A stretch of DNA of 64,000 nucleotides from Pseudocercospora fijiensis CIRAD86 (Eukaryota > Ascomycota > Dothideomycetes > Mycosphaerellales > Mycosphaerellaceae): contig NW_006921532.1 of NCBI RefSeq assembly GCF_000340215.1, forward strand, positions 8,305,735 to 8,369,734, written 5' to 3'. Positions within the stretch are counted from its first letter, which is position 1, and each line of letters begins with the position of its first letter. Made by a program: the position numbers and the translations under genes. Below, in pieces: positions 21,395 to 57,155 of the stretch. Below the pieces are notes generated by a model. It did not search any database, was not told the DNA's origin, and saw only the letters and a list, made by a program, of their open reading frames with translations.

Positions 21395-21976
21395 ATGCTT
21401 ACTAATTCGGCTTTTCTCCCAGCTCTTCTCGTAGCAGGGCTTCTCCTTTCCATTCCCAAACTCCTAAGCTTCATCCGCAAATTGCGCATCTACCTCAAAT
21501 ATTGCAAGTCGCATCGAGCCTTCAGTATTGAAGCAGGTCAAGGGAAATATCAATGGCTTGAGGACCCGTTTTCACAGTCACCGAACTTCTGGTTGTGTCG
21601 ATATGCTGCCATAAAACATGTCTTCAGCCGAGCCGCTATACACGAGACAGATCATCGAGCTGGCTTCGATTGGTTTCATTATGCAGGTTGGGAAATACCG
21701 ACATTTGATCCACGCTACAAGCATACAGTGCGTGACGCCGATCAGGCGGTGCATGGAAAGCTAGCAAAGTCGAAACTCAACACATTACTTGATACTGTGC
21801 AGGATATCGGCTATAGCGAGATCGATCGTATTAAAGCTGCCGTTGGTCGAGATGGAAGCACCGTCTCACTTCACTCGCTGATGTATCGATTGGGTTACAA
21901 CGTCAACTGCATCGGCATTTTTGGTCCTGACCTCGACCACGTGGCCACCCGATGGGTCCTACAAGATTTCACAGAA
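21395..21976 (+). pseudogene. Cytochrome P450, 5' part (interrupted gene)
   Basis: The open frame starts with MLTNSAFLPALLVAGLLLSI, an N-terminal membrane anchor, and runs about 194 residues through ERIKAA-like helix regions and the block YRLGYNVNCIGIFGPDLDH, typical of the CYP7/CYP8-like fungal P450 group. Family similarity stops around DFTE (21976). In an uninterrupted gene the next residues would be those found 33.5 kb away at 55463. There is no RIP and no internal stop in this half. A stop follows at 21998-22000 in foreign sequence. The truncated product lacks the haem-binding region and cannot be a functional P450. Confidence 0.85.
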
Positions 21977-22002
21977 CGCCAGCATGGGCATGGACGTTGA
22001 CG

Positions 22003-54700: not shown

Positions 54701-55462
54701 TTAATACTAATCGATAACTATATAGCTTATTAGCAAAGGATCGTAGAGTAAATAATCTATTCCTACGTATATAGCGTAAATATAAAAGGAGATACTTGCG
54801 GCTAACTTTGCTTTTAGATAAGCCGGTATTTAGGTAGTATATATACGCCGGTCTAACCGTCTAAGTAGAGCTATCTTACGTATAGGAGACGACGTCGATA
54901 TTACCGAGCGCGTTAGCCGGCCTATCTCGCTAGCTATACTAGGGTTACTAATAACGCCTATTATCGCTAATAGAGAAGAGGCTAAGGTTAAGTAAAAGAT
55001 CTCTATATTTACGAGGAGTAAGCTCTAGTAACGTACGAATAATTATAAATTAAACTTTATAATCGATATACTTATACGCCTACTAAGCGAAATTCCGGCC
55101 TATACCTTATCGCCCTCTTTTAAGTATTTACTTAGCGACAAAAACTAGACTTTAATAAAGAAATAGACGAAGAAAGAGATTCTCCGAGCTATAGAAACAA
55201 ACTCGTAGAGCTTTCTAGTATCGCTATAAACAGGCTATTAGGGCACGTAACTAGACGCTAATATTTAGATAGACTAAGTCGTAGTACCCTTAAATACTCC
55301 GAGTCTTTACGCTATTTGTTATACGACTAGGGAACTATATAAGCCTATATAATTACTAAGAAGTCGTCGTCTATACTAGGCCTAAGCAGCTCGCTATCCT
55401 TCTACTAAATAAGGTTGGCGGGAGACTAGCTAGATAGAGCAAAAGTATAGCGATAAGAGGTC

Positions 55463-56446
55463 ATGTTCAATTGCTTCAACTGGCCAGTACCCGTCTGGCT
55501 TTCTACTCGGATCATTCCTGCTGCCAGACAAACTGCCGCCGCTCGAAAAGCTCTGTACGATCTTCTGCTGTCATGGTACCAGTCTGGTGGTTTGAAGACA
55601 GCTTCCGAGGAGATGAAAGCAATTGTGACTGTCTTCGAACGAGCCAAATCGCCCCCTGATGTCGGGACCAAGTTTCTCAATATGATGATGATCGCCTTTT
55701 TGGCCAATACGCCTGAAACACTGGGCTGGCTCATGATGTATCTTGTTCAGGCTCCGGAGCTTTTCAAAGTCATCAAAGCAGAATGTGATGCTCTGGGCGA
55801 GTCTTTAGTCACCTTGAACTTCAAATCCGCAACACCGCATTTGTACTCGGCATTCTTCGAGACTTTTCGGATGTATGTCTTCACAGGAACACCGGCGACA
55901 GTGACGAAGCCATGCACGCTGCCTGGTATGGGAGACCACGTCTTTCAGCCTGGTGACATTTTGCACTCTTTTGCAGAGGCTTGTGCGATGGATGTCGAGA
56001 TATATGGATCGGACGTTGAGTATTGGAAGGGCCATCGCTTTGTTGGTGAGGGCGAGGCTTTGTTGAAGTACGATCTGACATTCGGACTTGGACGAAGCCG
56101 TAAGTATCGAAATAACTGTGATAGCTCTGCCAGTACTGACGCATCTCATTTCATAGCCTGTCCGGGTCGCAACTTTGCTATCATAGAACTGTGCATGCTG
56201 GCGGCTCGCATGATCAAAACCTTCGACTTCTCTGATCCCTTCATCAGCGAGAAGCTCAGCTTCAAAGACCCAGACTTTGTGGTGCATAAACCTGCTGAGG
56301 CAGGCAAGGCGAAAATCATTGATCTTGATGGAAGCATCAAAGAGGTCCTGCATCCTGGCAACAAGAGCGATCAAGGTCTTCCCGGGATGACAGCGTCGAA
56401 CATTCCTTTAAACGACTTTGCTTGCAAGCTGACGCCGCGATGCTGA
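55463..56446 (+). pseudogene. Cytochrome P450, 3' part (interrupted gene)
   Basis: Two exons, 55463-56099 and 56157-56446, with a 57-bp GTAAGT...TAG intron, would encode about 308 residues. They start MFNCFNWPVPVWLSTRIIPA and include the I-helix region (LNMMMIAFLANTPETLGW), the K-helix E-x-x-R motif (ETFRMY) and the haem ligand block FGLGRSPCPGRNFA completed by the splice. Together with the 194 residues at 21395-21976 this equals a normal P450 of about 500 aa. The half has no RIP damage and no stop. It has no promoter of its own apart from transposon DNA. The Met at 55463 is an internal Met of the original protein. Confidence 0.88.
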
Positions 56447-56989
56447 GTGCCTGGGCGGAGAAAGCGATATGCTGCTTACTGTCTATCAGATCTTCTGGTG
56501 TGCTATGGCGCTTTGGTCTCAAATGAATCCGACGATCTATTTCTCCTTATAGATATACTCACTGTCCAGGACATCCTGTATATCTCTCAGCGTCTTAGAT
56601 CGTTTGCACAGGCAAATTATCATTGAGGCCGGGCTGATAAGCATCGAGTAGCAACAAGTCCGATGGATGTTTGTTCGGACTTCGTAAGTGGGGCCATATC
56701 TGAAGATCCATGATTATGCATCAGAAATGAACAAGTATCGTGTCAAGTAACGGACTAGCCATTGATTCCATCGACCAAGTAACGGATCGATGGAGATCGA
56801 CAAACGCAAACTGGTATGCGGGGGCTGCAAAAACTCACACAAGCTCTTCCCTTGATCAAGTTACATCGATCTCACATGCTTCCAGGCATTTTTGGCGACG
56901 GAGAGGTAATGTAGTGCTGGATAGACTGTGCCAAGTTGCTGGTAGATCATATACGATCAAAACTCGCCAAGCCATCATCCAATCACATC
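56447..56989. other. Intergenic between P450 3' part and tRNA-Phe
   Basis: About 540 bp of un-RIPed sequence with no recognised gene. It includes the P450 3' UTR. Confidence 0.45.
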
Positions 56990-57145
56990 GTCGCTTTAGC
57001 TCACTTGGGAGAGCGCCAGACTGAAGCCTGCAAACTTTGGTCCAACGCACTGTGCGGTATCTGGAGGTACTGTGGTATGTAATCGCCTCGCTATGATATA
57101 TGTTACCACGTCTAACCAGTAATAGTTCGATCCACAGAAGCGACA
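56990..57145 (+). tRNA. tRNA-Phe (GAA) with two introns, one in the T arm
   Basis: Exons 56990-57026, 57059-57074 and 57126-57145 give a 73-nt tRNA. Acceptor GTCGCTT pairs with AAGCGAC; D stem GCTC/GAGC; anticodon stem CCAGA/TCTGG around CTGAAGA (anticodon GAA); T stem CTGTG/CACAG around TTCGATC; discriminator A. Every stem pair is Watson-Crick. Intron 1 (57027-57058, 32 nt) is at the normal 37/38 position. A further 51 nt (57075-57125) separates the T-stem 5' strand from the T loop; it begins GTATGT and ends TAG with CTAAC 11 nt before its end. The A box (about 56997-57008) and B box core GTTCGATCC remain intact. Positions 15 (C) and 48 (A) are not the usual G-C Levitt pair, so a decaying gene is possible. 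Confidence 0.85.
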
Positions 57146-57148
57146 ATC

Positions 57149-57155
57149 TTTTTTT
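57149..57155 (+). terminator. RNA polymerase III terminator (T7)
   Basis: A run of seven T on the sense strand starts 4 nt after the tRNA discriminator base, the normal pol III stop. Confidence 0.85.

Follow-up and report, generated by a model that had tools for sequence, protein, structure and literature searches.

The stretch of DNA analyzed here, referred to as the window, covers 64,000 nucleotides from the genome of the banana fungus Pseudocercospora fijiensis CIRAD86 (C1:8305735-8369734), which is assembled as 73.9 Mb in 30 contigs. It contains a nuclear tRNA-Phe(GAA) gene, Phe1, that is interrupted twice (Table 1). A first-pass annotation of the window described this gene as carrying a standard intron between nucleotides 37 and 38 and an additional insert in the T arm. 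The letters and coordinates agree with that anatomy.

Table 1. Features of the tRNA-Phe gene of the window (Phe1; positions in the window) and of the second tRNA-Phe gene (Phe2)
Feature	Position	Strand	Basis or remark
Phe1, possible TATA element TATAC at -40	56950..56954	+	weak; background 20% per 30 nt
Phe1 exon 1, nucleotides 1-37, tRNA-Phe(GAA)	56990..57026	+	letters, ARAGORN; same in Phe2
Phe1 standard 37/38 intron, 32 nt	57027..57058	+	ARAGORN, once the T-arm insert is removed
Phe1 exon 2, nucleotides 38-53	57059..57074	+	letters; comparison with Phe2
Phe1 spliceosomal-type intron at 53/54, 51 nt	57075..57125	+	signals, excision test; same insertion point in Phe2
Donor GTATGT	57075-57080	+	part of the 51-nt intron, which ends TAG
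Branch motif CTAAC	57112-57116	+	part of the 51-nt intron
Phe1 exon 3, nucleotides 54-73, discriminator A	57126..57145	+	letters; comparison with Phe2
T7 run, likely Pol III terminator	57149..57155	+	letters; T-run count
Phe2 gene	C3:746424-746645		genome DNA search with the spliced Phe tRNA
Phe2 37/38 intron, 30 nt
Phe2 T-arm intron at 53/54, 63 nt			diverged from that of Phe1
Phe2 acceptor-stem intron between nucleotides 4 and 5, 56 nt			GTATGT...CTAAT...AAG

Two tRNA-Phe genes and their introns

ARAGORN reports no tRNA in the unspliced DNA of Phe1 under four intron settings. When the 51 nt are excised, it reports a 73-nt tRNA-Phe(gaa) with the 32-nt intron at 37/38, and the restored cloverleaf predicted by the first-pass annotation is thus recovered. 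Among 6,451 distinct excisions of 40-80 nt, the best ARAGORN score belongs to 57075-57125 and to no other, and a donor, a branch motif and an AG end are present together in 0.062% of these excisions. The junction can be slid by one base, and GT-AG ends appear in just one of the two registers. The likeness of the insert to mRNA introns also stood up, as the four mRNA introns that were read (two in PIG-M, one in STE11 and one at locus L039) are 52-57 nt long and carry CTRAY. Across the window, a comparable donor and branch motif occur in 24 of 4,122 GT..AG stretches of 51-65 nt. An intron of the cytochrome P450 gene, sought as a further mRNA example, was not found. The P450 gene itself is split in the window, with its N-terminal and C-terminal parts at 21395-21985 and 55451-56440, about 33 kb apart. 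In P. musae the same protein is in one piece, and a large insertion between the two parts is likely.

A genome DNA search with the spliced Phe tRNA found one other locus, Phe2, which has three introns. After their removal, the exons of the two genes are identical at 73/73 positions. The introns differ at 11 of 80 aligned sites plus gaps, as against 0 of 73 in the exons (Fisher p = 0.00075). The unusual bases C15 and A48, which had left room for the idea that Phe1 is decaying, are present in Phe2 as well and are therefore no sign of decay. Decay of Phe1 is unlikely because the exons of Phe1 and Phe2 are identical and no other Phe gene was found. It had also been noted that GTGGTA can pair with TACCAC across the 5' junction of the T-arm intron. 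The complementary stretches are indeed present, and Phe2 is predicted to form a similar hairpin, but an importance for it found no support.

The search for an uninterrupted tRNA-Phe gene used patterns for both halves of the molecule. The 5'-half pattern, from the A box to the anticodon with up to three mismatches, matches Phe1 and Phe2 alone in the whole genome. The pattern for an uninterrupted 3' half, again with up to three mismatches, has zero matches in the assembly. Normal intact tRNA-Phe genes, which would have pointed to Phe1 as an inactivated copy, were thus found by neither pattern. A pattern with gaps, built to find T-arm introns of this kind, matches three places (Phe1, Phe2 and one mRNA-like intron), and its reversed control matches one. 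Three other loci were considered as Phe genes and dropped. With free intron placement, ARAGORN calls L026 Phe(gaa) and both L023 and L024 Phe(aaa), but with the intron fixed at 37/38 it calls L026 Arg(ccg) and sees no tRNA in the other two; L026 is identical to the Phe tRNA in just 33 of 82 aligned columns.

Interrupted tRNA genes across the genome

The spliceosomal-looking T-arm intron is not confined to Phe1, since Phe2 carries one at the same site and 15 further tRNA genes have introns of this kind. In all, GT-AG introns occur in 17 of 40 catalogued nuclear tRNA genes, with 19 introns of 51-65 nt lying in the acceptor stem, D arm, variable loop and T arm. This catalogue is incomplete, as the RF00005 search scored 63 of 3,083 candidates and listed 40 matches, which were sorted into 21 ordinary nuclear genes, 10 interrupted genes and 9 that were set aside. 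This search gave interrupted genes for Asp(GTC), Ser(GCT), His(GTG), Leu(CAG), Gly(GCC), Ser(TGA), Thr(TGT), Gln(CTG), Val(CAC) and, with two introns, Arg(TCT). Other searches supplied the two Phe genes, a second Gly(GCC), a second iMet, Arg(ACG), Ala(TGC) and Ala(AGC), together with two ordinary genes (L083 and L085). Five yeast tRNA sequences gave no match to further isoacceptors and were an uninformative query set. In unspliced DNA, ARAGORN detects 2 of 12 interrupted genes.

The matches set aside are of several kinds. L006, L007 and L014 are organelle-like and AT-rich (24-33% GC). L006 and L007 form a cluster on the largest contig (C1:2533000-2536300) that looks mitochondrial and contains tRNAs for Asp, Ser, one with anticodon TCA, Ile and Ser. 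L023, L024, L029, L030 and L041 are tRNA-like repeats with long inserts and similar copies across contigs. L048 (C10:1124450-1125350), which belongs to neither group, consists of two adjoining tRNA-like stretches in which ARAGORN with a 37/38 intron sees no tRNA.

The junctions, assigned by eye in standard tRNA numbering, are spread along the molecule. They lie at 4/5 (Phe2 and Asp), 9/10 and 10/11 (the Ser genes), 14/15 and 15/16 (the Ala genes), 18/19 (the second Gly gene), 19/20 (the second Arg(ACG) gene, Arg(ACG)2), 25/26 (iMet2), the variable loop and 59/60 (the two introns of Arg(TCT)), 52/53 (the first Gly gene), 53/54 (Phe1 and Phe2), 61/62 (His, Gln and Val), 62/63 (Thr) and 69/70 (Leu). 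By eye, 12 of the 19 junctions lie within a box of the internal promoter (A or B), and two more sit at the edge of one. This clustering may come from detection bias or from a true preference, and it is only a lead.

Within the reach of the searches, nine isoacceptors were found in the nuclear set in interrupted form only: Phe, Asp, Ser(GCT), Ser(TGA), Leu(CAG), Gly(GCC), Thr(TGT), Val(CAC) and Arg(TCT). His is perhaps a tenth, given that L027 (C2:3308788-3308878), with a 19-nt intron, shifts identity with intron placement: ARAGORN calls it His(gtg) at free placement and Ile(gat) at 37/38. The agreement of L027 with the interrupted His tRNA is 43 of 91 aligned columns. When 10 spliced tRNAs (His, Thr, Gln, Val, Asp, two Ser, Gly, Leu and Arg) served as queries in a DNA search, no uninterrupted near-identical copies were found. 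The matches were the interrupted gene of each query, the second Gly(GCC) gene and an ordinary Gln(TTG) gene, and the reach of this search is such that it missed L012, a diverged uninterrupted Gln(CTG) gene.

Four interrupted genes have a close uninterrupted paralog, with identities of 71/72 for Ala(AGC), 69/72 for Arg(ACG), 68/72 for Ala(TGC) and 65/72 for iMet. Acceptor-stem changes between the members are still paired in three pairs of iMet2, one of Arg(ACG)2 and one of Ala(TGC)2; the acceptor stem of Ala(TGC)2 has one unpaired position, T-T. The two Gly(GCC) genes have identical exons (71/71) and carry their introns in the T arm and the D loop, respectively, so that each gene serves as the empty site for the intron of the other.

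These observations bear on the possibility that the genes with GT-AG introns are merely pseudogenes or insertion alleles, with working uninterrupted genes missed by the searches or lying outside the assembly. According to a review, short D-arm and T-arm insertions of eukaryotic tRNA genes mostly affect a single gene among many synonymous ones, and the genes that carry them are supposed to be pseudogenes (PMC4090602). The genome is assembled in 30 contigs, the searches were not exhaustive, and the pseudogene reading was weighed on sequence evidence. The L006 cluster carries uninterrupted Asp(gtc), Ser(gct) and Ser(tga), which were set aside solely for their AT-rich setting. Against this stand the nine isoacceptors, or ten with His, for which the nuclear set yielded interrupted genes only. 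The Phe and Gly pairs have kept identical exons while their introns differ, pairing survives the acceptor changes in iMet2 and Arg(ACG)2 and at one of two places in Ala(TGC)2, and downstream T-runs are retained in 17/17 interrupted genes. We regard inactivation as extremely unlikely. The insert of Phe1 is very probably a spliceosomal intron of the U2 type, residing in a working nuclear tRNA-Phe gene and forming part of a genome-wide set.

The paralogs differing by the presence or absence of an intron point to clean gain or loss, as would be expected of an introner-like mobile intron that spread recently into tRNA genes. The first-pass annotation had raised an origin of this kind, and introner-like elements have been described in related Dothideomycetes (PMC4457414). 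However, such elements are recognized by several near-identical copies per genome, and in a BLAST search with 15 of the 19 introns, each had its own locus as the sole match. The reach of this search is short; it missed the likeness between the T-arm introns of Phe1 and Phe2, and more diverged relatives could escape it. That pair is the only case of clear likeness among the 19 introns. In the study cited above, P. fijiensis served as the negative control for primers to the Fulvia element (PMC4457414). A recent introner-like spread is, on balance, quite unlikely. The tRNA introns of P. fijiensis and the introner-like elements have in common related host fungi and spliceosomal intron gain, but the elements, as described there, form repeated families in protein genes, whereas the 15 searched tRNA introns have no near-identical repeat.

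Splice signals and the excision test

Spliceosomes recognize a GT donor, a branch motif and an AG acceptor. All 19 tRNA introns have GT...AG ends, although the GT-AG register was picked by us where a junction is slidable or is left unfixed by ARAGORN. A YTRAY branch motif is present in 19/19 and CTRAY in 18/19, the exception being the Ala(TGC)2 intron, in which TTAAC is the sole branch motif. The distance from the branch A to the intron end is 10-14 nt in 18 introns and 19 nt in one. Splicing restores the cloverleaf in all 17 interrupted genes, as judged by ARAGORN.

The choice of junctions was examined by cutting every stretch of 40-80 nt at each of the 19 introns and scoring the product by ARAGORN. 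By this score, the called GT-AG excision stands alone at the top in 8 cases, shares the top in 5 and is beaten in 6. Better-scoring rival excisions number 1 for the T-arm intron of Phe2, 3 for Leu, 7 for Ser(TGA), 167 for the first Arg(TCT) intron, 1 for iMet2 and 41 for Ala(AGC)2. Over all 19 introns, 475 rival excisions score at least as well as the called one; full signals are present in a single one, which lies at the first Arg(TCT) intron, and another 8 have GT-AG ends but lack the full signals. The base rate of full signals across excisions is 0.014-0.092%. Junctions that fall in the D loop or the variable loop are left unfixed by ARAGORN, and those in the D arm are fixed by the uninterrupted paralogs. 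Confidence in the junction is lowest, among the 19, for class II tRNA-Leu and for the first Arg(TCT) intron.

The same signals argue against a second suggestion of the first-pass annotation, that the T-arm insert is another endonuclease-cut intron. On this account, the inserts would be ectopic introns with a bulge-helix-bulge (BHB) motif, of the type that the tRNA splicing endonuclease excises in archaea and the alga Cyanidioschyzon merolae. Positions 53/54 and 3/4 are known for archaeal introns, and the tRNA-Ile(UAU) gene of C. merolae has introns at 12/13, 37/38 and 53/54 (PMC4090602, PMC9602550). A relaxed scan finds a loose BHB-like fit in both Phe T-arm introns, but none in the acceptor-stem intron of Phe2. 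A stricter scan, with the two Arg(TCT) introns left out, finds a fit in 1 of 17 introns, but as it also finds one in 0 of 3 standard 37/38 introns taken as controls, it carries little weight and did not enter the judgement. GT, YTRAY and AG at mRNA-like spacing in 19/19 introns are not expected of endonuclease introns, and removal by the endonuclease is very unlikely.

C. merolae and nucleomorphs have ectopic tRNA introns, up to three per gene, including some at 53/54 of the T arm (PMC4090602, PMC9602550, PMC3978253). P. fijiensis resembles them in having eukaryotic tRNA genes with several introns, a T-arm position at 53/54 among them. However, the tRNA-Ile introns of C. merolae are described as forming BHB motifs, and the non-canonical introns of Guillardia theta as 3-24 nt long, many of them without a defined BHB, whereas those of P. 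fijiensis are 51-65 nt long with GT, branch motif and AG. The ectopic tRNA introns of archaea, nucleomorphs and C. merolae are described as either BHB introns or unexplained short ones (PMC4090602, PMC9602550, PMC3978253, PMC8450103). The standard eukaryotic intron at 37/38 is also present in both Phe genes, beside the GT-AG introns, and differs from them in position and signals.

Transcription, maturation and implications

Transfer RNA genes are Pol III genes, and the SEN endonuclease excises their introns at 37/38. A run of at least four T residues lies within 60 nt downstream of 17/17 interrupted genes (background 14%), and a run of at least five in 15/17 (background 3.5%). Among the ordinary tRNA genes, 19 of 21 have a downstream run of at least four. 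An upstream TATA element that would explain the tolerance of split promoters was considered and rejected, as TATA-like sites are scattered and their background is high (20% per 30 nt). A CCAATCA-like motif is seen just upstream of several interrupted tRNA genes, for example at 56979-56985 of the window, and may or may not exceed chance. The Thr intron includes TTTT, which could halt Pol III early.

Since a T-run follows the gene, Pol III is the most likely polymerase. Alternatively, the introns could be spliceosomal and the tRNAs carried within Pol II transcripts, from which they would then be processed. Transcripts made by Pol II are the normal substrates of spliceosomes, and in several cases an intron interrupts the A or B box. 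On the other hand, the T-runs close downstream in 17/17 genes speak against Pol II transcripts. The need for Pol II is also weakened by a precedent, as the U6 snRNA gene of Schizosaccharomyces pombe, which is transcribed by Pol III, reportedly contains an mRNA-type intron that is removed by the spliceosome. Transcription by Pol II therefore seems unlikely to us, and Pol III transcripts that are substrates of the spliceosome are the preferred reading.

The S. pombe U6 intron is the nearest precedent. The two cases are alike in that an mRNA-type intron resides in a small Pol III gene, with spliceosomal removal deduced from the signals in P. fijiensis. They differ in that U6 is a part of the spliceosome, whereas in P. 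fijiensis many tRNA genes are concerned and the U6 genes are free of such introns: two U6 genes above the cut-off align with the full U6 model along 110 bases and show no insert of intron size (47 of 3,662 candidates scored). For 5S rRNA, one full-length gene was found at C10:560931-561050 (47 of 2,888 candidates scored), which is few for a filamentous fungus. A second match, at C7:1352160-1352213, is partial and covers the 3' part alone, and in 401 bases fetched around it no 5S match reaches E 1. An mRNA-type intron is also said to have been described in 1993 in the nuclear 18S rRNA genes of fungi (title cited in PMC11782384). It is likewise an mRNA-type intron in a gene for a non-coding RNA, but the host is rRNA there and tRNA in P. 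fijiensis.

A pathway for the maturation of these tRNAs can be proposed. Pol III would transcribe the interrupted tRNA gene up to the T-run at its 3' side. The spliceosome would then remove the GT-AG introns by means of the mRNA-type donor, branch and acceptor signals. The tRNA splicing endonuclease would take out the 37/38 intron, and the ends would be trimmed before the addition of CCA. GT-AG splicing would probably occur before the tRNA folds enough for end trimming and the endonuclease cut. In C. merolae, introns of the D and T arms are removed ahead of the anticodon intron (PMC9602550), which is a parallel only to the order proposed here. With no uninterrupted tRNA-Phe gene found in the assembly, the spliceosome of P. 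fijiensis is likely to be an obligatory machine of tRNA maturation, such that tRNA-Phe and several other isoacceptors could be made solely through spliceosomal removal of introns. The products would presumably be functional tRNAs.

In the textbook view, the introns of nuclear tRNA genes are a separate world, with one intron at 37/38 and a dedicated endonuclease. The tRNAscan-SE 2.0 paper likewise gives one intron as the limit for eukaryotic tRNA genes (PMC8450103). Spliceosomal cutting is a step not known for tRNAs, and among the titles listed by searches of the open-licence PMC literature, none concerns spliceosomal introns in tRNA genes. If the proposed pathway is true, the spliceosome would be needed for making tRNA, and Pol III transcripts would feed it in bulk. 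The supply of tRNA would depend on mRNA splicing and compete with it. Essential genes could also escape tRNA finders, as the low detection by ARAGORN in unspliced DNA illustrates. Finally, the paralog pairs with and without an intron make gain or loss of introns directly visible in genes that have no reading frame.
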